Below, piece by piece: positions 10,642 to 61,332 of a DNA stretch of 64,000 nt. The notes under the pieces were generated by a model. It saw only the letters and a list, made by a program, of their open reading frames with translations. It was not told the origin of the DNA and made no database searches. The DNA is from Pseudoroseicyclus tamaricis (GTDB lineage: Bacteria; Pseudomonadota; Alphaproteobacteria; Rhodobacterales; Rhodobacteraceae): the NCBI RefSeq assembly GCF_012070395.1, contig NZ_JAAFYS010000001.1, positions 536,001-600,000 on the forward strand. Direction: 5' to 3'. How positions within the stretch are numbered: the first letter of the stretch is position 1; each line of letters starts with the position of its first letter. The position numbers and the translations under genes are program-made.

Positions 10642-11718
<1,077 letters not shown>

Positions 11719-48113: not shown

Positions 48114-48131
48114 GTGGCAGCCCGTAGGGGA
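48114..48131. repeat. attL: 18-bp copy of the tRNA-Glu 3' end
   Basis: GTGGCAGCCCGTAGGGGA matches 59408-59425 exactly and matches the tRNA-Glu 3' end on the minus strand. Flanking similarity continues weakly to the right (TTC versus ATC). In the excised circle the sequence to its right (48132-48162) would follow the integrase gene. Confidence 0.85.
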
Positions 48132-48170
48132 TTCACACGTGCGCAGAAAGCCCAAGAAATAAGGGGCGAG

Positions 48171-48235
48171 GTGTCCCACGCTGCCCGCCAAGTCGGCCTA
48201 TGGGAAACAACGGCTTAGCGGCAGCGTGTCCCACG
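48171..48235. repeat. Two GTGTCCCACG decamers near attL
   Basis: GTGTCCCACG at 48171-48180 and 48226-48235, same orientation, 40 and 95 bp inside attL. Two more copies lie near attR. The word AAACAACGG at 48205-48213 also recurs near attR (59386-59394). The rest of 48132-48383 holds no supported gene apart from the orphan integrase tail at 48132-48162. These are likely integrase arm sites. Confidence 0.55.
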
Positions 48236-48383: not shown

Positions 48384-51017
48384 TCAGCTGGTTTCTGACA
48401 CTGCGAGCTGAACCTCGAAAGCGTCTTTGAAGGCCTTTCGCCGCGTCGGTTCCGCACCGAAGAATGGCAGCCCCCGGATTTCGTGGGGCTCTGGCGCCGC
48501 AAGATCTCCACCATTGTCGGCATCCCAACCGATGGCCTCCAAGAACTTGCTCTTCCAAGCCTCGCTGTCCCAGCCTCGATCTCCCTTGGGTTCAATGAAA
48601 ACCTGCCGGCAGAGGGGAGCGCTCCCTTTTCGACGCATGAGCAGGATGTAGTCTGGCTCGGTTGCCCTGTCGCCGCCGATCTCGTGCAGCTTGATCATCT
48701 TCTCGTTGCGAATGACGAAAAACTCATCGAAGGCCTTGGCGATATCGCTCTGCATGCTGGCGATGAAGGCGACAAACTCCTTTTCCTCGCTTGTGCCATA
48801 GCAATCGTCGAAGACGTGCCAATCCGCGTTGGCCAGATTGACGCCGCGAGTCGACGCGACGTCGGACTCCTGCCAAGACTTCATCGTTTCTCCTGGAACG
48901 GAGAGCTTCAGGACACGATCCTTTAAGATTCCGGAGATGCGCTTCGGGAAGAACTCCTTCGACCCTTGGTGCGTAGCTTGTGCGCGACGCACATCGTTGG
49001 CAATGGCAGATAGAACCGCTCTGGCTACATGCAGCGCATCTGAGGGCGATAGACGGCTCAGTCGCTCCTGTGGGCCCCTAACAGTGATCTTGAGTTCTCC
49101 CAAGCCGTCGGCGTCAAGAAGGAACCTCCTAAGTGACTGGAGTTTCGGGAATGCCTGCCGAAGCTCGGCCAGTCTGAAGCTTTCGATCTCGTCACAAGCT
49201 CGACGCAGCACCGGATAGCCAATTTCGGAAAGTTTGAGCTCGTCCTCTGCTGCGGATGCGTCCAAAACTGGTCCCTTGGCGTCACCCTCGGCGTCAAACG
49301 CCCCTGTCTCCATGGCTCGCCCGGAATAGCCAGAGGGCAGATCAACGAAGAACGTGCGTTCGGAGAGAACGTCGCTCACACTTCGCGTCGCCTTGTCGAC
49401 CGGCACGCGCTTGTTCGCCCAAAGGCAGTAGCCCTGAAATACTTCAGTGTCCTTGAAGCTTTGCTTCACCTTCAGCTCGACGACCTTTTCGCCTTCGGTC
49501 AACGCGCCTGTGATGACGAGGGCCTTCTTCAGGTCGGAGACGTATTTTAGCTCGTGGGTGCAATGATAATGCATCTGCTCCAGCAGTCGCAGCTGAGAGC
49601 CATGATCATCGTCATACTTGCGCAGCCCGGCAGGCTTCTCGTCATCCTCGGGGTCAGCGAATGGAAAGTAGCGTGCACCACGGCCTATCAGCTGTGCCTC
49701 GCGCATCGTCGTCTCGGACGGTTTCTTGCCAGAGCCCGCTTTCTCGCTCAGCCTCACCACGTCGAATAGGTTGAGAACGTCCCAGCCTTCATCCAGCTTG
49801 TTCACCGCGAAGATGCACCGGATCGGATTGCCAGGGTCCTCCAGGCTGTTCAGCAGGATCTGCTGTCTCCCGAGGTCGTCCGGTTCGTTCACGTTCGTCG
49901 TTCGCGCCTCGCTGAACTGCGATCGAAGAGCGAGAACCAAATTTTCGTAGGTGTCAGCCGGGGCAAGCGCATCGAAGGCGTTGATCAGTGTTTGATCAAC
50001 CGGATCGGCTCCTGTGGCTGACGTGTAGAGCTCTTGCAAGCGATCAGCTTGCAGATGATCAATCAAGTCTCGGAAGGTTTCCTGATTGACCTTCGACTCC
50101 TTTATGGTCGCTGACTTCATCAGCACCACCGGCTTCCAGTCTTCGCCCAGGAGATCTCGCGCAAGTGCACGCCGGTATTCGCTGAGCACGATGGCCTGGA
50201 GCATTCGGTCTTCGACAGAAACTTCAGCCTGTCGCAGCTCGATGTCTTTGGAATACCCGTCCGCCCGGAAGGAACGGAGGGGGTAATCGATGATCATCTT
50301 GTCGGAATACTTGGCTGCGATGCCGGAGTGGTCCATGTCCACAGTGGCACTGAACTCCAGCAGGACGTTCTCCGGGTGCTGGCGAAGGACCTTGCGGACC
50401 GTATGCTCCCAGCTCTTCTCTTCCTCTTCCTCGGTCTGGGTCAGTCGGCTCTTCGTCAAGGCGTTGATGTGGTGAGCTTCGTCGGAGATCATGACGACCC
50501 GGCGCTCTTCGAAATCCTCGAATGTCAGGCCGTTTTCCTTGGGGTTGTTCAGGACCGTGTGCAGTCCCTGGATCGTTGTAAAGACGATATTGATCGCATC
50601 CGGAACGGCGGCGTCGAAGTTGGTCACATCCTGCACAGGAATGTTGTCATCACCCATTCGCACAGCCGGTGCGAAGAGATACTTGCTGGAAGCCGAGTTG
50701 ATGAAATTCGCCTTCGTCTTCTCGACGATCTGGGACGAATTCACGAAGAAGAGGAAGTTGCGATAGCCTTGCGTCCAGAGGTGTAGCATGGCGGAGGCCA
50801 TGATGACTGTCTTCCCGGAACCGGTCGCCATGTGAAACAGAAGGTGCTCCGGCCCTGTGCGTTCGCGTGACATCTTCCATACGAAGCGCGAGATCGCCTG
50901 TCGCTGATACGGACGCAGGCCAATACCTGGTGAAAGGTTGTCGGCGACATGGCTCGGAACGTCGACCTCGAGCATTCCGTCCTTCTCGTATTCGGCCAGC
51001 TTCTCATGGAGGATCAT
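48384..51017 (-). CDS. res: Type III restriction enzyme, Res subunit
   Basis: An 877-aa SF2 helicase-nuclease. Walker A MATGSGKT lies at residues 63-70, DEAH at 179-182, EFSATVD is motif III, and LIGRGARYF is motif VI. The C-terminal PD-(D/E)xK nuclease reads EPDYILL... FIEPKGD. It cleaves DNA with Mod when two unmethylated sites meet head to head (family knowledge). Its ATG overlaps the mod stop by 4 bp. Its GC content is well below the chromosomal flanks, consistent with acquisition. Confidence 0.93.
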   Translation of the reverse strand: MILHEKLAEYEKDGMLEVDVPSHVADNLSPGIGLRPYQRQAISRFVWKMSRERTGPEHLLFHMATGSGKTVIMASAMLHLWTQGYRNFLFFVNSSQIVEKTKANFINSASSKYLFAPAVRMGDDNIPVQDVTNFDAAVPDAINIVFTTIQGLHTVLNNPKENGLTFEDFEERRVVMISDEAHHINALTKSRLTQTEEEEEKSWEHTVRKVLRQHPENVLLEFSATVDMDHSGIAAKYSDKMIIDYPLRSFRADGYSKDIELRQAEVSVEDRMLQAIVLSEYRRALARDLLGEDWKPVVLMKSATIKESKVNQETFRDLIDHLQADRLQELYTSATGADPVDQTLINAFDALAPADTYENLVLALRSQFSEARTTNVNEPDDLGRQQILLNSLEDPGNPIRCIFAVNKLDEGWDVLNLFDVVRLSEKAGSGKKPSETTMREAQLIGRGARYFPFADPEDDEKPAGLRKYDDDHGSQLRLLEQMHYHCTHELKYVSDLKKALVITGALTEGEKVVELKVKQSFKDTEVFQGYCLWANKRVPVDKATRSVSDVLSERTFFVDLPSGYSGRAMETGAFDAEGDAKGPVLDASAAEDELKLSEIGYPVLRRACDEIESFRLAELRQAFPKLQSLRRFLLDADGLGELKITVRGPQERLSRLSPSDALHVARAVLSAIANDVRRAQATHQGSKEFFPKRISGILKDRVLKLSVPGETMKSWQESDVASTRGVNLANADWHVFDDCYGTSEEKEFVAFIASMQSDIAKAFDEFFVIRNEKMIKLHEIGGDRATEPDYILLMRRKGSAPLCRQVFIEPKGDRGWDSEAWKSKFLEAIGWDADNGGDLAAPEPHEIRGLPFFGAEPTRRKAFKDAFEVQLAVSETS

Positions 51018-52939
51018 TCAGCGGCCTCCGGCATGTTGTAGAAGGTGCGGGTTAGCTTGCGGTCGCGCTCGCTCAGGCCGTGCATCTCGTCGTCCATGTC
51101 GCCAACGTTGACGTAGAGATGGTCAGCGGCCACCGCCTCGCGCAGTGTGCGGCGCTTCACAGTCGGGGACAGTTCGGACCAGTCGGGCGATGTCAATCCG
51201 CCTGGCTCGATGTCATGTCGGAGGAAGGGGGCCCCCGTCAGCTCGTCACGCAAGCCGTCGAGTGCCTCGTCCTCCGCTGCGTCGAGCCTCGCGACGAAGT
51301 CCTGTCCCTCCGATGCAATTTCGGCATAGAGCAGTGCTCTCGAGTCATCTTCTTGATCTTCTGGTTCGGAGAGCACCTTCTTTACTCGTTCCAAGGTCGT
51401 TCCCCGGACGTAATCCATCTGCTCGACCAAAATAAAGCGGCGGTTCCCACCGAGCCGGCGATTCATTTCCACGGTAGCATGTCCTGTTGTGCCGCTTCCC
51501 GCAAAGAAGTCGAGTATGAGAGCAGAAGGACGATTAGCTGTAATCGCATGCAAACAATCGTAGACAGTCCAGAGCGACTTCGGAAAGCTGAAGGTGGTGT
51601 CTGGGACCATTTCGGCTAAGAGCTGCTTGCCATAGGCGTTCGAGTCGTATTTCGTGTCGGTCCAGACCGTCTTCACAGGTCGGTCGTTCTTTCCGATTTG
51701 AATGTCATACGTGTCGCCGGATTTTACCGGGCGGATGACGTCCATTATGTCTTTAATGCCCTCAATTGAGTAACGCCATTTCCTCTCAACGTCGTTTCGG
51801 TCGATAGGATAGATGTGGTGAACTCCGGCTTCGTCCACGAAATTGCGGGGGTGCTCATCATCGGGTGTCCGCTCTCCCACTCCGACAATCTTGCCATCCT
51901 TAACCAAAATTGGATAGAAACAGTTTTTCGCATGATGACGCTCAGATTCGCCGCCCCAGTTTCGGAGCGGAGACCAGTCAACTTCCTCCTCCGAGCAAGG
52001 TTGCCGATTTATCATTTTTTCTCCGCTCGGCAGAACGAATAGGGCAAACTCGTTTGTATAGGAAAAATTGGTCCCCTGCACTCCGCGAGGATTGTGAACA
52101 ACGGTTATGCAGTGAACGTCGTATCCGGTAAATATCTCTTCAACTAAGGCGCCAAGATAGAAAAGCTCATTTTCATCTATCGCGATTATCAATGCGCCAT
52201 CATGTTTCAGTAGCTTTTTTGAGGCCTCCAAGCGATTCTTCATGAACGTCAGCCATGTCGATCGCTTGAACCTGTTGTTGTAGCTGAAGGGATCTTCTGC
52301 CGATCCAGTATTATACGGAGGGTCGATGTAGATACAGTCCACAGCACCGGCAAAGCGATTTTGCAATGAATGCAGAGCGAGAAGGTTGTTGCCCTTGATG
52401 AGGAGGTTCTCATTGCCCGTGATTTCGTTCACCTCGGCCGGCTTACCTGCTGCCACGGCATCGGCATCCCAGCGCTCCCATCCCCGGATCGCCTTTGGTT
52501 CCTCCAGCCGGATTACCTCATCCGGGGCTACTATGCGGTTCACAAACCGCTCCGAGCCGCCGCGATCCTCGCGCGTCATACCTCCGGCCAGAACGCAATC
52601 CTTGTAGGGCCAGTCGAGAACCACCTCGCGACCCTTGCGGAGCGCCTCGCCGGCCACTGACAGCCCGATCTTGTTGCCGAAGGCGGTGAAGCTGTCAGGC
52701 AAGAAGTCTCGCATGGTCACGGTCTGCATGAACCGCACCTTGTCGAACACGAGCGTTCCTCCCACGTCCTCGAAGAAGGCTTCTCGGAGGCTGTCATTGC
52801 CTGCCAGCACGGCCAGAAGGTCCGGCTGCATGTTCAGCGCACGATCCTCAACACGCGATCGGATGAGTTCCCCGCTTTCATTCAGAAGGTCGGGGAGGCC
52901 AGCGAGGGCGACTTTCAGTTCGGTAAGCAGGGAGGTCAT
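51014..52939 (-). CDS. mod: Type III DNA methyltransferase, Mod subunit
   Basis: A 641-aa beta-class N6-adenine methyltransferase. DPPYNTG (DPPY at residues 206-209) precedes the AdoMet-binding LDFFAGSGTTGHA near residue 455, the order expected for Mod. The variable region between them is the target recognition domain and determines specificity, which cannot be read here. It methylates one strand of an asymmetric site and guides Res. Translation is coupled to res. Confidence 0.94.
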   Translation of the reverse strand: MTSLLTELKVALAGLPDLLNESGELIRSRVEDRALNMQPDLLAVLAGNDSLREAFFEDVGGTLVFDKVRFMQTVTMRDFLPDSFTAFGNKIGLSVAGEALRKGREVVLDWPYKDCVLAGGMTREDRGGSERFVNRIVAPDEVIRLEEPKAIRGWERWDADAVAAGKPAEVNEITGNENLLIKGNNLLALHSLQNRFAGAVDCIYIDPPYNTGSAEDPFSYNNRFKRSTWLTFMKNRLEASKKLLKHDGALIIAIDENELFYLGALVEEIFTGYDVHCITVVHNPRGVQGTNFSYTNEFALFVLPSGEKMINRQPCSEEEVDWSPLRNWGGESERHHAKNCFYPILVKDGKIVGVGERTPDDEHPRNFVDEAGVHHIYPIDRNDVERKWRYSIEGIKDIMDVIRPVKSGDTYDIQIGKNDRPVKTVWTDTKYDSNAYGKQLLAEMVPDTTFSFPKSLWTVYDCLHAITANRPSALILDFFAGSGTTGHATVEMNRRLGGNRRFILVEQMDYVRGTTLERVKKVLSEPEDQEDDSRALLYAEIASEGQDFVARLDAAEDEALDGLRDELTGAPFLRHDIEPGGLTSPDWSELSPTVKRRTLREAVAADHLYVNVGDMDDEMHGLSERDRKLTRTFYNMPEAAE

Positions 52940-53878: not shown

Positions 53879-55582
53879 TCAGCCTCGTTGCAGCGTGTGA
53901 TCGTATCGAACGACCCGTATCGCGATCGGCGGAGAGTCGGTGTGGAGTCTCGCACGCTTCGGGTCAGTCGCCTTCGACGGATGATGTTCACGCAGCTCCA
54001 CATTGAGGCCGCGCCTCTCGGCCTCTTTCAGAAGGTGATGCAGACCGGCCTTGTATTCGACCTGCATCTCGCTGTGTTCGGTGAAATCCCGCGCATCCCG
54101 GGTTGGCGCATAGGCATCGCAGATCGCGGTGTTCGTCATGGCGGCAAGGTGCTTATCGATCTGCTCCGCTGTCATTTCCTTGGGTAGGGCCCAGGCGTTC
54201 GGGATCGAGAGCTGCTCTCCGGGGACGGCGCCAGCCTCTTTGATCAAATCGAGCATTGTCTGGGGCGGCTCGCGGCCGTGCCGGGTCTCGGCCTCAATGA
54301 CTGCCCGCGCGCGCGCCTCTTGTTCAGCGAGGGCAGCGTCCCGCTGCTGCCGAAAACCGAAGATGGATCGAGCGAAACCGACGAGCCAATCGCGGGCCGG
54401 CTTGATCTTCTCGGAGAGCCAGGCGCGGCGCTCTTTGCTCTCAGGCTTGTTTCGGCCCCAAGTAAGCCCCTCAGCTGTTTTCTCGGTCGGAGGTGCATAG
54501 GTAAGCTCTTCGGCAATGATCGCCTGCGTCCCGATGCGCAGCGACTCCTCCCTTGCCGCCAGCGCGGCGCGCTCCTCCTTCGCCGACCGCAGCTCCTGTG
54601 CCGCAGTCTTCCGTGACGCCTTCGCGTCTTCCAAGGCTTGCGCGGTTTCCTTGCGCAGATCGCTCGCGGCCAGCGCATCGCGCTCGGCGGCGGCTTTTTC
54701 GACGGCCGCTGCCTCTCTGTCTTTCGAGGCCTCGGCAGCTTTGATCGCAGCGATCTCGCGTCCACGGGAAGGCGAAATGTTATTGCGCTTCGTGACCTCC
54801 TCGCCCGCCTGCCGCTGGATGCGCTCCTGTGCCGCCCTCCGCTCCCCGCGAACAAAATCGAGACCGTGGGCCTGCGCGTAGTCGGCCACACGGTCCTGGA
54901 GGAGCTCATAGCTTCGGCGCGTGAGCGTGGGGTCGGGTTCTTCGTCGTCGAAGAGCGACTGAACTTCTTCCATTCCGAAGAGACGGTGCTGCCGGTGGCT
55001 CAGCTCCCGACGCTTGGTCTTCCGGTTTTCATGCTCCGGCGCGATCAGGAACGAAAGATGCGGCGTCTTCTCATCGAGATCGAGGCGGGCGTAGAGAACC
55101 TCGTCGCCGAATTCCTCCGCCAGGTATCCGAGCGCGAAGTGCCGGAAGGTATCCACCTTGGCCTCATCGATCTGGCCGTTGCCGTCGAGAAACCACTCAT
55201 GGGAGACCGACAGGATGCCTTCGGTGAAGGGGTGCACGTTCTTCGGGTCCCAGGGCCAGCCTATGACTTCCGCCAGCGCATTGGGATCGTCACCGGCCAC
55301 CTCGAGCGCCGCGTCAAGGTCCTCGATGTCGGTCCTGCGCCGGCGACGCTTCAGCGACGCACGCTTTCGCCCGACGTTGTCCAACTGCATCTGGACGATG
55401 TGCGCATCGACGATCTCGCGGAGGTCCGCGTTCCCGATTGGGAATTCGTTGAGGTGCGTGCGTGTGGAGTCGATGTTCGGCAGGCCCTCGCCCAAACGCT
55501 TTCCATGCGCTTCAATGCCACCGACCCCATGGTAGGTGACACGCTCGTAACGCAGGACAATGAGGTTCGCGGGCTCCTTCAT
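53879..55582 (-). CDS. mob: MobV-type relaxase (Mob_Pre family), diverged active site
   Basis: A 567-aa protein. The N-terminal region GIEAHGKRLGEGLPNIDSTRTHLNEF (about residues 22-47) matches Mob/Pre relaxases. The metal motif, usually HxDExTPHxH, reads DLDEKTPHLS at residues 168-177, so two of three His are changed. A coiled coil spans about residues 280-360. The C-terminal 200 residues are not recognised. It is likely the mobilization protein of the element, nicking at an oriT that should lie near its 5' end, where the hairpin-rich region begins. Confidence 0.75.
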   Translation of the reverse strand: MKEPANLIVLRYERVTYHGVGGIEAHGKRLGEGLPNIDSTRTHLNEFPIGNADLREIVDAHIVQMQLDNVGRKRASLKRRRRRTDIEDLDAALEVAGDDPNALAEVIGWPWDPKNVHPFTEGILSVSHEWFLDGNGQIDEAKVDTFRHFALGYLAEEFGDEVLYARLDLDEKTPHLSFLIAPEHENRKTKRRELSHRQHRLFGMEEVQSLFDDEEPDPTLTRRSYELLQDRVADYAQAHGLDFVRGERRAAQERIQRQAGEEVTKRNNISPSRGREIAAIKAAEASKDREAAAVEKAAAERDALAASDLRKETAQALEDAKASRKTAAQELRSAKEERAALAAREESLRIGTQAIIAEELTYAPPTEKTAEGLTWGRNKPESKERRAWLSEKIKPARDWLVGFARSIFGFRQQRDAALAEQEARARAVIEAETRHGREPPQTMLDLIKEAGAVPGEQLSIPNAWALPKEMTAEQIDKHLAAMTNTAICDAYAPTRDARDFTEHSEMQVEYKAGLHHLLKEAERRGLNVELREHHPSKATDPKRARLHTDSPPIAIRVVRYDHTLQRG

Positions 55583-56301
55583 TTCAGGGAATTACGCCCC
55601 AGTGGCGGGTGTCCCTAACGATCAGGACCAGGGCCGCCTTCGGCGGCCCTTAGTGAGCGCATCCATGGATGCGCTCAGGTGTTTACTCACTATGGAGCAG
55701 AGCGCACCGGCCGTTGGCCTATGCGCTCTGCTCCCCGTTCGCCCGGGGCGCTGCCCCGGGACCCCGCGCCTCCGGCGGGGCGCCTGCGCGGCGGGCGGTC
55801 CTGGGCGGACGGCCGACAGGAGCCCGTATTTCGCGCTCCTGCGCCTCCGGCGGCCGGGGAGCGTCGTTCCGCACTCCTCCCCGAACCCCACCTGCTCGGG
55901 CCTCCCCGGCCCCGGCGAGGAGGGGGCAAGCCCTCTCCTCGACCTCTCCCATTCCAGCCGGCGCCTCCGTAGCCTTGGAACTCGTTTGCGCTGCCTGCGG
56001 CCGGGAACAGATTGGAGCCGGTGGGCCGACAGCCCTCCCTTCGGGTCCGACGCCTCACTGTGAGCGCCGGACCCGAAGGGAGACTGAACGGTCAGGAGAG
56101 GCGGGGATGAGGAGACGACGGCGTAGCCGTCGCCACACGCGGCCTCGCGGCGCGCCGCAGAAGATCAACGGTCGACCATCAAACCCGCATCGTGGAGGAC
56201 GTCTCGGCGGATCGATTATGCATAAGGATCGCCAGTGATCCCGGCGGCGATCCACGCCGTGGGCGCCGTGTCAGTCATCACCGCAAGAAGGGATCATCGG
56301 C
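55583..56301. other. Hairpin-rich non-coding region, candidate oriT
   Basis: About 720 bp with no supported gene and many dyads. Examples: AGGGCCGCC/GGCGGCCCT at 55630-55650; a perfect 24-bp palindrome at 55654-55677, nested inside TAGTGAG (55651-55657) and CTCACTA (55686-55692); a perfect 13-bp inverted repeat at 55694-55706 and 55722-55734; a 10-bp repeat at 55917-55940 (one mismatch); and a 24-bp near-perfect dyad with a 1-base loop at 56035-56082. Its place just upstream of the relaxase gene suits oriT; a replication origin is also possible. Confidence 0.5.
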
Positions 56302-57954: not shown

Positions 57955-58179
57955 ATGCCTGCTGCTCAACCATCCAGATCCTCGGTATCGAACGTAATCA
58001 GCGCGATTATCGCTGCGGGCCTTCAACCGGGTGTAGTTCGCGTCAACCCCGACGGGTCTTTCAGTGTCGATGTTGCAGGCAATGCCAACGAGATGCCCAC
58101 CGAGCACGGCGAAGCCACGACCGGTCCGCGGTCGAGCGCAAACGCGGATGAGGCCCCAACCTGGGACGATGGAAAATGA
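57955..58179 (+). CDS. Small protein preceding the integrase
   Basis: A 74-aa protein starting MPAAQPSRSSVSNVISAIIA, with LQPGVVRVNPDGSFSVDVAG in the middle and an acidic tail ending in DDGK. Genes of this kind are often found directly upstream of tyrosine integrases in alphaproteobacterial elements; function is not established. It overlaps the integrase ATG by 4 bp. It could be an excision factor, but no helix-turn-helix is evident. Confidence 0.65.
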   Translation: MPAAQPSRSSVSNVISAIIAAGLQPGVVRVNPDGSFSVDVAGNANEMPTEHGEATTGPRSSANADEAPTWDDGK

Positions 58180-59465
58180 AGATATCGAAGACCTACGAAG
58201 GCCTGTGCGAGGAAAAGACGCCAGCGGGGACGACCCGCTGGCGCGTTCGCATAGAGGGGCAGAAGAAAAAGAAAATCACGATCCCCGTCGATCCCGAGCA
58301 CAACGACTTCGAAGAGCATTACCTCGCCGCACGGGCTGGCGTGAAGCTGACCATGGAGCCGAAACCGAAGGCGGGCAAGAATACTCTCGACGAGCTGTGC
58401 GAGAAGTTCCTGGAGTGGATGAAATTTCAGGTGGAAGCGGGAAACCTCAAGCAGCCGACACTCAACAGCCGCATCACCGGGCTAACCCAGGCCCGCGCCT
58501 GCCTTTCGCCCAATAAGAAGCTGCGCATGGGCGAAATGTCCGCAGCTCTGCCGCGGGAGGCATTTGCCCACATTCGAGATTCCTTCGGAGCCCACACCGG
58601 CGCGGCGCACACGTGCCTGAAGGCACTGCGGGCCGCCTATCGGTGGGGTGAAGACTACGGTTATCCCGTCGACAGCCCAGTGCACAAGATCAAGAGCAAC
58701 CATGTCGAGAAGGGCGGCGCGGAACCTTGGAGTGACGCCGATGCCGAGAGATTTCTTGCGCATCACGGACCGGGCACCATGGCGCGTCGGTGGTTCCTCC
58801 TGGCCGAGGCCACGGCGGGCCGCATTGGCGATATGCATCTCCTTGGACCGGATCATGAATTGACCCGGAACGAGCGTCTCTACATCCGGTATCAACCGTC
58901 CAAGAAGGGCTCGTCCGAAGTCCAGCTACCGCTGCCTTGGAACTTCATGCTCGAGGTCGCCAGCCTGCCAGTGGGCGCGCCTGCCTACCTGCTGACGGAA
59001 AAAGGCACACCGTTCGCTTCGTCCGGCTCTCTCGACAACGCGGTCCGCAAATGGATCATTGCGGCCGGATTGAGCGAGCCGGTTCTGGACGCTGACGGAA
59101 ATCAGTTGGTCGACAAGAAGGGCAAGCCGAAGATCCGCGCAACGCGGTCGCAGCACGGAATTCGCAAGCGTCGCGCCGAGCAGATCGCCGAAGCGTCCGG
59201 CTCGGTCTACGAGGTCATGGCGCACCTCTCGCACAGCGATCCAAAGACCGCTGCAATTTACACCAAGCGGGTCGACCGCGCGCGTCTCGCCGAGCGTGCC
59301 GCGCTGCGTGCCGAAGCCGCCGCAGGAGTGCAGGGTGTCCCACGGCCGGAAAATCGTGGGACACTGGACGACTCAGCGCCCAGTAAAACAACGGAAAATG
59401 AGGAAAGGTGGCAGCCCGTAGGGGAATCGAACCCCTCTTTCCAGGTTGAAAACCTGGCGTCCTAA
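58176..59465 (+). CDS. int: Tyrosine-type site-specific integrase
   Basis: A 429-aa recombinase. The N-terminal arm-binding part is Lys-rich, a SAM-like core-binding domain spans about 70-175, and the catalytic domain has Arg216 (TAGRIGD), HGIR (His327, Arg330), His353 and Tyr362 (IYTKRVD). It integrates at tRNA-Glu. The frame passes through attR and stops inside the tRNA gene, so the last residues (GESNPSFQVENLAS) are host-encoded. In the excised circle the same frame would end GDSHVRRKPKK, using sequence at 48130-48162. Confidence 0.93.
   Translation: MKISKTYEGLCEEKTPAGTTRWRVRIEGQKKKKITIPVDPEHNDFEEHYLAARAGVKLTMEPKPKAGKNTLDELCEKFLEWMKFQVEAGNLKQPTLNSRITGLTQARACLSPNKKLRMGEMSAALPREAFAHIRDSFGAHTGAAHTCLKALRAAYRWGEDYGYPVDSPVHKIKSNHVEKGGAEPWSDADAERFLAHHGPGTMARRWFLLAEATAGRIGDMHLLGPDHELTRNERLYIRYQPSKKGSSEVQLPLPWNFMLEVASLPVGAPAYLLTEKGTPFASSGSLDNAVRKWIIAAGLSEPVLDADGNQLVDKKGKPKIRATRSQHGIRKRRAEQIAEASGSVYEVMAHLSHSDPKTAAIYTKRVDRARLAERAALRAEAAAGVQGVPRPENRGTLDDSAPSKTTENEERWQPVGESNPSFQVENLAS
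59335..59364. repeat. Inverted GTGTCCCACG pair near attR
   Basis: GTGTCCCACG at 59335-59344 and CGTGGGACAC at 59355-59364 form a perfect inverted repeat with a 10-bp spacer. It lies within the 3' part of the integrase gene, about 44-73 bp from the attR core. Two direct copies lie near attL. In the circle these flank attP on both sides, as integrase arm sites do. Confidence 0.6.
59408..59425. repeat. attR: 18-bp repeat within tRNA-Glu 3' end
   Basis: GTGGCAGCCCGTAGGGGA, identical to 48114-48131. It covers the CCA and acceptor/T-arm side of tRNA-Glu, so integration keeps the tRNA intact on this side. Confidence 0.88.
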
Positions 59466-59483
59466 CCGATAGACGAACGGGCC
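59409..59483 (-). tRNA. tRNA-Glu (anticodon UUC)
   Basis: A 75-nt cloverleaf on the minus strand including an encoded CCA. The acceptor stem GGCCCGT/ACGGGCT has one G-U pair, the anticodon stem is CCAGG/CCTGG with loop TTTTCAA giving anticodon TTC, and the T arm is GGGG-TTCGATT-CCCC. The 3' end serves as the element's attachment site. Confidence 0.95.
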
Positions 59484-59589: not shown

Positions 59590-61332
59590 TCAGGCCGGGG
59601 CGGCGTCGTCGAGCATCAGCTGGGCGCTGGTGCGGCCGTTCCAGTGGTTCAGGTCGAGCCGCCCGGCGAGGTGGAAGCGCTTGCCGGCGTGCCGGAGCAG
59701 GGCGAGGCCGAGGTCGCTCTCCACCAGCCCGAAGCCGATGCAGCCGAGCCGGCAGGTGCCGTCGCCGATGGTCAGCTTCAGGTGCCCGTCACCCACCGGC
59801 CGCGCATCGAGGATGCGGCAGTCGGGCAGGGCGAAGCGCGGGGCCGGGGCCGAGGCGCCGAAGGGGCCGGCGGCGGAGAGGCGGGCGACGAGCTCCGGCG
59901 TCGCCGCGGGGGGCAGGACCATGCCGTCGAGCTTCAGCGCCCGGGGGCCGAAGCTGCCGGCGCCCTGCGTGGCCAGCAGTTCCTCCAGCCGCGCCATCGC
60001 CGGCTCCAGCTGCTCGCGCGAGAGGGTGAGCCCCGCCGCCATCCGGTGCCCGCCGCCGCGCTCGATCAGCCCCTCGTGGGCCAGCCGCTGCATGGCGGCG
60101 CCGATGTCGACGCCGGGGACGGAGCGGGCGGAACCCTTGCCCACGTCGCCATCGAACCCGATGACCACGGCCGGCCGGTCCGCGGCCTCCTTCAGCCGCG
60201 CGGCGACGATGCCGACGACGCCCGGGTGCCAGCCCTCGCCCGCCGCCCAGGCGAGAGGTGCCTCCAGCCCGCGCGCTTCAGCCTGCGCCAGCGCGGCGGC
60301 GCGCACGGCGGCCTCGATCTCCCGCCGCTCGCGGTTCAGCCCGTCGAGACGCTCGGCGAGGGACTGCGCCTCGCCGGCGTCTTCGGTGGAGAGGAGGCGG
60401 GCGCCGAGATCGGCCCGCCCGACGCGGCCGCCTGCGTTGATGCGCGGGCCGAGCACGTAGCCGAGGTGGTAATCCGTCGGCGCCGTCGTCAGCCCTGCCG
60501 CGTCGCAGAGCGCCGCCAGCCCCGGCCGCCCGCGCCGCGCCATCACCTGCAGCCCGGTGCGCACGAAGGCGCGGTTGACCCCGACGAGCGGCGAGACATC
60601 GGCGACGGTCGCCAGCGCCACGAGGTCGAGGCTCATCATCAGGTCGGGCCCCGCCGGCAGGCCCGCCTCGCGCCGCTGCCGCCTTGCCTCGACCAGCATC
60701 AGGAAGGTGACGCCGGCGGCGCAGAGATGGCCGAGGTCGCCGCTCTCGTCCTGCCGGTTGGGGTTCACCACCGCCACCGCCTCGGGCAGCGTCTCGCCGC
60801 CGAGGTGGTGGTCGAGGATCACCACGTCTGCCCCACGCGCCGCCGCGACCGGCTCATGCGAAAGCGTGCCGCAATCAACGCAGACGATCAGGTCATGCGC
60901 GCGCGCCAGCTGCTCCATCGCCGGCACGTTGGGCCCGTAGCCCTCGTCGATCCGGTCGGGGATGTAGAGCGTCGGCTCGCGCCCCAGCGCCCTGAGCCAG
61001 GTGAGGAGCAGCGCGGCGGAGGCGCCGCCGTCGACGTCATAATCGGCGAAGACGGCGATCCGCTCGCCCTCGGCCACGGCGCGGTTCACGCGGGCCGCCG
61101 CCGCCTCCATGTCCCGCAGCTGGCGCGGGTCGGGCATCAGGTCCCGCAGCTTCGGCTCGAGGTACCCCGGCACCTCCTCGGCCAGCACCTTCGAGCGGGC
61201 GAGGATCGCGGCCAGCGGCAGGGGCAGGGCGTGGGCCTGGGCGATGGCCTCGGCGGCCCGGCGTGACATCTCGTCCGGCCCGGCCCAGGGCCGGCCGGTC
61301 AGCGACGACGACACTCCGAGAAAGGCGTCCAT
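59590..61332 (-). CDS. recJ: Single-stranded-DNA-specific exonuclease RecJ
   Basis: A 580-aa DHH-family 5'-3' exonuclease acting in recombination and mismatch repair. FADYDVDGGASAALL (about residues 95-109) and VILDHHLGGETLP hold the metal-binding DHD and DHH motifs; GPRINAGGRVGRADLG lies mid-protein, and GGGHRMAAGLTL is the DHHA1 motif. Length and motif order are normal for RecJ. It is a host gene directly beyond tRNA-Glu. The ATG start gives MDAFLGVSSSLTGRPW. Confidence 0.95.
   Translation of the reverse strand: MDAFLGVSSSLTGRPWAGPDEMSRRAAEAIAQAHALPLPLAAILARSKVLAEEVPGYLEPKLRDLMPDPRQLRDMEAAAARVNRAVAEGERIAVFADYDVDGGASAALLLTWLRALGREPTLYIPDRIDEGYGPNVPAMEQLARAHDLIVCVDCGTLSHEPVAAARGADVVILDHHLGGETLPEAVAVVNPNRQDESGDLGHLCAAGVTFLMLVEARRQRREAGLPAGPDLMMSLDLVALATVADVSPLVGVNRAFVRTGLQVMARRGRPGLAALCDAAGLTTAPTDYHLGYVLGPRINAGGRVGRADLGARLLSTEDAGEAQSLAERLDGLNRERREIEAAVRAAALAQAEARGLEAPLAWAAGEGWHPGVVGIVAARLKEAADRPAVVIGFDGDVGKGSARSVPGVDIGAAMQRLAHEGLIERGGGHRMAAGLTLSREQLEPAMARLEELLATQGAGSFGPRALKLDGMVLPPAATPELVARLSAAGPFGASAPAPRFALPDCRILDARPVGDGHLKLTIGDGTCRLGCIGFGLVESDLGLALLRHAGKRFHLAGRLDLNHWNGRTSAQLMLDDAAPA

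Follow-up and report, generated by a model that had tools for sequence, protein, structure and literature searches.

What happens to an integrase when the 3′ end of its gene is exchanged upon integration of the element that encodes it? The question is raised by a locus in the 64,000-nucleotide stretch of Pseudoroseicyclus tamaricis DNA analysed here (the window), where an integrase gene runs across its own attachment core into a host tRNA gene. A preliminary description had claimed that this exchange could be a built-in directionality switch, with one protein end in the integrated state and another in the circular state.

The 18-mer core GTGGCAGCCCGTAGGGGA occurs in exactly two copies in the window, both on the + strand, and a genome-wide search with the 16-base pattern GGCAGYCCGTAGGGGA returned these two core positions only (Table 1). 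A tRNA-Glu end was found close to recJ in 22 of 30 recJ loci, the window's locus counted in, with 24 tRNA-Glu end matches in total because two loci have two each. The integrase frame (429 aa) crosses the core as WQPVG and in the integrated state gives the C terminus GESNPSFQVENLAS, its stop codon lying within the tRNA-Glu gene. At 48114, the same frame reads WQPVGDSHVRRKPKK and then meets TAA at 48160-48162. Translation thus reproduced the coordinates and peptides given earlier for both element ends. When the flanks were joined by script, the integrase of the computed circle ended GDSHVRRKPKK, so that a circular form of the element would encode the short-tailed protein previously proposed. After the common WQPVG, the two alternative ends comprise 10 and 13 residues. 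As a matter of geometry, the claimed swap of C termini and the displacement of the native 3′ end were borne out, the swap involving the last 10-13 residues and the displacement about 11 kb.

Table 1. Positions of the integrase gene, its putative attachment site and other features of the element, in window coordinates
Feature	Position	Strand	Remark
Att core, far (distal) end of element	48114..48131	+	identical to tRNA-end copy
Remainder of circular-form tail (…DSHVRRKPKK + TAA)	48132..48162	+	translation in integrase frame
A-rich motif GCCCAAGAAATAAGG, contains KK-stop of the tail	48150..48164	+	counterpart of 59379-59393
P′-arm-like site 1, GTGTCCCAC	48171..48179	+	39 nt past core
P′-arm-like site 2, GTGTCCCAC	48226..48234	+	94 nt past core
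Type III restriction-modification Res-like subunit, cargo	48384..51017	-	
Type III restriction-modification Mod-like methyltransferase, cargo	51014..52939	-	
MobV/Mob_Pre-like relaxase	53879..55582	-	PF01076, 46.9 bits (cut-off 25.5)
Small ORF, 74 codons (119 if from 57820)	57955..58179	+	overlaps integrase start by ATGA
Integrase gene, lambda-like tyrosine recombinase	58176..59465	+	phrog_1, fold match, catalytic residues
P-arm-like site 1, GTGTCCCAC	59335..59343	+	in integrase frame; start 74 nt ahead of core
P-arm-like site 2, inverted GTGTCCCAC (GTGGGACAC on +)	59356..59364	-	in integrase frame
A-rich motif CCCAGTAAAACAACG	59379..59393	+	start 30 nt ahead of core
Att core, tRNA end	59408..59425	+	59409-59425 = 3′ end of tRNA-Glu
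tRNA-Glu(ttc), target gene	59409..59483	-	adjoins recJ
recJ	59590..61332		neighbour of target tRNA-Glu

The cores are separated by a span of about 11.3 kb. The relaxase encoded there matched NF041497 at 44 bits, below the cut-off of 100 for that family. With an integrase and a relaxase enclosed by two att copies, the element resembles an integrative mobilizable element. A 19-nt inverted repeat (56035-56082; 95% complementary, 10-nt loop) was observed between the relaxase and the integrase-side genes.

The integrase matched the phrog_1 integrase profile (E 5e-23), and its match to PF00589 (20.9 bits, E 3.3e-4) fell below the gathering cut-off of 27.1. Lambda Int accounted for the first six fold matches of the integrase model, full-length lambda Int being the best, at E 7.3e-10 and with a modest global fit (TM 0.46 by query length, 0.55 otherwise). 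Residues R216, K243, H327, R330, H353 and Y362 are those which we take to be catalytic. R216, K243, H327 and R330 were invariant in a 22-row alignment, Y362 was found in at least 90% of the rows, and position 353, as read from the alignment, was H or W in 22 of 22. As in lambda Int, three strands and a helix were predicted at the N terminus, and the integrase is probably an arm-binding one. The last long helix of the model finishes at residue 384, ahead of the core at codon 412; integration would therefore not split off the catalytic domain. Residues 391-429 had pLDDT below 50 (mean pLDDT 79.1, pTM 0.50), a value obtained for the integrated form and for which the thin alignment of 22 rows is a possible alternative cause. 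At the DNA level, codons 387-411 coincide with the arm sites and the arm-to-core DNA, and codons 412-429 with the core and antisense tRNA-Glu sequence. The small ORF overlapping the integrase start had no family match above cut-off, DUF5122 appearing below cut-off only (E 0.086); from its position, we would guess at a directionality factor.

The DNA around the cores carries further repeats. The window contains four copies of the 9-mer GTGTCCCAC versus 0.31 expected, all of them flanking the cores, as an inverted pair on the integrase side and a direct pair at the far end. By its arrangement, the core with these arm-like pairs presents itself as an attP of lambda-like layout, overlapped by the integrase gene. 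As in lambda attP, the core is bordered on its P and P′ sides by arm-like sites that share one short sequence; in contrast to lambda, the window's P arm is contained in the coding frame of the integrase, and integration is aimed at the tRNA-Glu 3′ end. Relatives were scored with a pattern derived from the scored rows themselves (GTGTCCCAC, GTGTACCAC, GTGGACCAC and inverted forms). On the integrase side, both sites were found in 19 of 26 rows, at -74 and -53 (±3 nt), one site in 2 (G250, G405) and none in 5 (L048, L062, G402, L070, L148). On the distal side, 6 of 12 rows had both sites, 4 had one and 2 had none; in L048 the exact site was absent from both sides. The arm type agreed between the two ends in 7 of 9 scorable genomes (window, G133, G267, G405, G397, G398, G404), with G398 and G404 having the other arm type, GTGGACCAC, at both ends. 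It differed in G250 (L051) and G402 (L065/L079), where the integrase side and the distal core found were of GTGTCCCAC type versus GTGGACCAC type; ends of different elements may have been left together in these two genomes. In G398, contig 45 carries two distal-type att ends (L077, L078), one on each strand, with about 293 kb between them.

An A-rich motif also recurs on both sides of the core. Its consensus, CCCArTAAAAtAAGG, was derived from the scored rows themselves and applied at the best placement, which was -30 to -32 in 20 of 23 integrase-side rows and +18 to +20 in 10 of 12 distal rows; several rows scored no better than frequent shuffle scores (e.g., integrase-side G380 and G402). The motif was not recognised in place on the integrase side of G250 and G405 or at the far end of G402 and G405. 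The sequence encoding the KK-stop of the window's tail, CCCAAGAAATAAGG, is similar to this consensus, which is also present at elements whose integrase stops earlier. Likewise, in G250 and G404 the integrase stops upstream of the arm pair, yet the arm-like sites persist in the untranslated DNA. The inverted arm-like pair (59335-59364) encodes the conserved integrase residues VPRPxxRGT; since the same DNA is kept where the integrase stops earlier (G250, G404), it may be the DNA that accounts for the conservation of these residues.

Next, the position at which the integrase frame stops was compared among relatives. The table of stop states covered 28 integrases (27 relative loci and the window), of which we kept 23, namely those whose gene adjoins a tRNA-Glu core and whose matched region is free of early stops. 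Excluded were L056, L073 and L074 (early stops), L058 (nearest core 2.7 kb off) and L071 (tRNA-Met). The near-copies L052 and L053 were each counted among the 23, as were L069, L070 and L072, which match only from about query residue 97-117 onward and so may be N-terminally truncated; in G184, the genome match of L069, a stop lies farther upstream in the integrase frame. Two plasmid/phage records, L147 (tRNA end only) and L148, stood outside the 23-row counts, and L061 was left out of the genome pattern search. Several loci are known by two labels (G394=L048, G397=L059, G398=L060, G402=L065, G404=L067, G405=L072, G133=L054, G267=L055, G250=L051). Two loci showed features of their own: tandem tRNA-Glu genes at 11211 and 11367 stand beside the integrase with in-frame stops in L056 (Sagittula salina), and in L070 (Phycocomes zhengii) the catalytic Tyr is replaced by H (GVHTRKF) in an open matched frame.

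Among the 23 members, window included, the integrase frame read through the core in 15, stopped before it in 7 (9 to 329 nt upstream) and stopped inside it in 1 (TGGTAG). On a tree of 25 of the 28 rows, with L058 and L071 treated as a third group, the read-through state required 8 changes versus an average of 8.2 after shuffling, a number as low being reached in 290 of 500 shuffles; the state does not cluster on the tree. L055, which at 75% identity is the nearest relative outside the window's group of 83-86% identity, stops before or inside the core. Because 8 of 23 members stop before or inside the core and have nothing to swap, a switch built on the exchanged end is unsupported in this family.

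In the read-through members, the tRNA-encoded end is nearly uniform, 14 of 15 ending NLAS, NLTS or NLVS, while L068 continues past that stop. This uniformity might suggest a degradation signal, loosely LAA-like, that makes the integrated form of the integrase unstable, and a parallel exists in mycobacteriophages, where, according to sections of one paper, integration strips an ssrA-like tag from the repressor and the integrase is tagged too (PMC9262239). The sameness of the end, however, shows no selection, since the tRNA dictates the sequence. Moreover, the terminal residue is S in place of A, and an end in S is not known as a strong degradation tag. With L068 running past the stop and 8 of 23 members lacking this end, we regard a degradation tail as extremely unlikely.

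Whether the element moves at all bears on the second tail, which would never exist if the element were fixed and the circle never formed. The relatives of 82-86% identity occur in three genera (Mameliella, Jannaschia and Aliishimia), suggesting past movement. More distantly, the integrase of viral contig L102 (1903-3120, - strand; 29% identity over 305 columns) reads into the same tRNA-Glu end, so the arrangement extends beyond close relatives; the plasmid (14) and phage (8) records with a related integrase were all below 60% identity. In many draft genomes the distal core was not found, and several contigs end near the gene. In favor of a fixed element, no joined attP of this family was recognised when the flanks of 41 core-bearing viral-contig stretches were read by eye, an alignment search of viral contigs yielded 27 stretches of which none was confirmed as a relative, and profile searches recognised no directionality factor; a protein search of viral contigs gave a single weak match, L031. 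The open integrase frame with its catalytic residues, the identical cores, the four of four arm-like sites at the cores and the spread over three genera speak against it, and we consider a fixed element very unlikely.

To see what the frame encodes beyond the distal core, we compared 12 distal ends (window, L048, G133, G267, G250, G405, two of G398, G402, G404, G397 and L148). The tails of the window (GDSHVRRKPKK), G133 (GDSHSDKMPKK) and L048 (GDRHLREKLKK) are equal in length and have D, H and the KK-stop in common. A conserved basic tail was nevertheless rejected, as the read-through relatives G398 (GECQMPKKPNEL and GECQKPKKLNEL) and G405 (GEAQIEKNHKNKGSVSHPKDE) have tails that differ from the window's in both sequence and length. 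Members whose integrase stops before the core have distal frames reading GDWHTR (G267), GDCQKWRKAQQNKG (G404), GDSRNEPK (G402) and GESQKPTEPQ (G250), and that of G397 runs for about 150 residues. Where the DNA is A-rich, lysines are encoded in either group; a basic end thus does not set apart the members that translate it. The preliminary description had named random sequence in this place in related elements as telling against its idea; this was borne out in part, as what we found was a site conserved as DNA and a basic peptide that is not conserved.

The way in which codons vary was then examined in the window, L048, L049 and G133 (three rows for the distal tail), with region borders set by us. 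Variable columns at codon positions 1, 2 and 3 numbered 57, 39 and 228 (310 each) over codons 2-311 (-1230 to -300), 3, 2 and 26 (36 each) from -300 to -192, and 4, 5 and 29 (39 each) over codons 348-386, around and after the catalytic Tyr. The counts were 4, 1 and 3 (11 each; p=0.047) in the P arm, 7, 9 and 3 (14 each; p=1.8e-6) from the P arm to the core, and 5, 6 and 3 (12 each; p=5.9e-5) in the distal tail, the p values coming from Fisher tests against the -900 to -300 stretch that take columns as independent and draw on few columns in 3-4 related rows. Third positions were therefore the most variable in the protein body and the least variable in the arm-to-core stretch and the distal tail. 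In 13 read-through rows, entropy by codon position was 1.22/1.39/1.65 in the catalytic stretch and 1.17/1.44/1.05 from the P arm to the core, and an earlier pairwise codon test including L055/G267 gave the same pattern. In these small samples, the arm-to-core and tail codons do not vary in a protein-coding manner.

One observation at first pointed the other way. In the last 42 nt ahead of the core, the integrase frame was open in 19 of 23 rows (taken from the 26 integrase-side rows) versus 9 and 6 in the other two frames and 10.2 expected from shuffling. This excess sits in the A-rich motif (21/9/9 for the three frames) and is absent on its flanks (22/23/19 and 22/23/18), and in G250, G402 and G404 the integrase frame is open at the motif though not translated there. 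Selection for an open frame was accordingly rejected, the excess being traced to the A-rich motif. Taken together, the repeat and the site exceed chance, and the tail as a protein feature has no support beyond the conservation of its DNA.

A precedent for a working switch is myxophage Mx8, whose attP lies within int; sections of two papers describe how integration creates a new 3′ end and changes specificity or lowers activity (PMC6070905, PMC4701971), a 112-residue end being exchanged for 13 residues and the modified integrase being less active (PMC4701971). The window resembles Mx8 int/intX at the sequence level, in that the integrase frame crosses the core and gains another C terminus on integration. 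By analogy, the circular-form integrase ending GDSHVRRKPKK could be a strong integrator and the integrated form ending GESNPSFQVENLAS weaker or altered, helping to retain the element. The shared geometry, the equal length and common D, H and KK of the tails in the window, G133 and L048, and a frame open more than expected speak for such a switch. Unlike in Mx8, however, both ends in the window are short (10 and 13 residues) and lie beyond the predicted fold. Further evidence weighs against it: 8 of 23 members are without anything to swap and the state is unclustered on the tree, codon-type constraint is absent, the tail region is predicted to be disordered, and the tails of G398 and G405 match the window's neither in sequence nor in length. 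By our own measure, the exchanged end of the window fails as a maintained protein feature in its stop states, tree, codons and model, and an Mx8-like switch is improbable. The directionality switch of the preliminary description was thus not upheld, given members that cannot swap, absent tree clustering and codon constraint, a low-confidence tail and an unconserved peptide; the exchanged end is unlikely to be a working switch, although it may have a small regulatory effect. A narrower version, in which the end tunes the integrase by state in read-through members only, the tRNA-encoded end weakening or destabilising it and the A-rich motif supplying a lysine-bearing circular end, has in our view quite a slim chance of being correct. 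If it were true, a host tRNA gene would be part of a control device that is gained or lost by moving one stop codon.

The topology itself, an integrase end changed on integration, is already of a known kind. The Islander paper, in the section concerned, notes integrases that extend across attP and names Mx8 and SSV (PMC4383910). Streptococcal rumA ICEs and the snf2 IME are described in sections of two papers as having att within the integrase gene, the excised form of the rumA ICEs having a different integrase C terminus (PMC4701971, PMC5357655); these are likewise mobile elements with a recombination site in the integrase gene, but they are treated there as serine integrases, whereas the integrase of the window is of the tyrosine type and its target a tRNA gene. 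Archaeal suicidal (SSV1-type) integrases also have attP within the integrase gene, as a section of PMC8371274 describes, but in those the gene becomes divided and the catalytic domain comes to lie on a different part, whereas the whole fold of the window enzyme stays on one side. In the integration-dependent immunity of mycobacteriophages, as presented in part of PMC9262239, a protein C terminus is altered by integration at a tRNA gene, as is that of the window integrase; attP there lies in the repressor gene and arm sites are not required, whereas the window has attP in the integrase gene and arm-like sites. A literature search, a weak test, found no description of this integrase family.

We favor, with considerable confidence, a compact module in which a lambda-like integrase gene shares its end with the left half of attP, the exchange of ends is a by-product and direction is controlled as in lambda. 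Past about residue 384, the DNA of the integrase gene would be foremost a recombination site: an inverted pair of arm-like sites comes first, followed by one A-rich motif, the core, another A-rich motif and finally a direct pair of arm-like sites. The integrase frame of the window and of 14 relatives would happen to remain open across the first half of the site owing to the make-up of that DNA, so that a disordered extension of about 40 residues would be translated, and integration would exchange the last 10-13 residues of that extension. Most probably, this exchange has no function of its own and is a by-product. By placing the P-arm pair and the P′-arm pair at opposite ends of the element, integration would set direction as in lambda, and excision would require an additional directionality factor. 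We infer that a circle forms, that the integrase binds the arms, that control of direction is lambda-like and that the tail has no effect.

For this family, the finding explains where a tRNA-encoded integrase end such as GESNPSFQVENLAS comes from, and it provides a worked test for telling an integration-changed integrase end that acts as a switch from one that does not. Related enzymes at one and the same site come in natural stop-before, stop-in-core and read-through variants, which opens the Mx8 question to study in close relatives. It also suggests, through VPRPxxRGT, that integrase residues can be conserved via the DNA of a recombination site.
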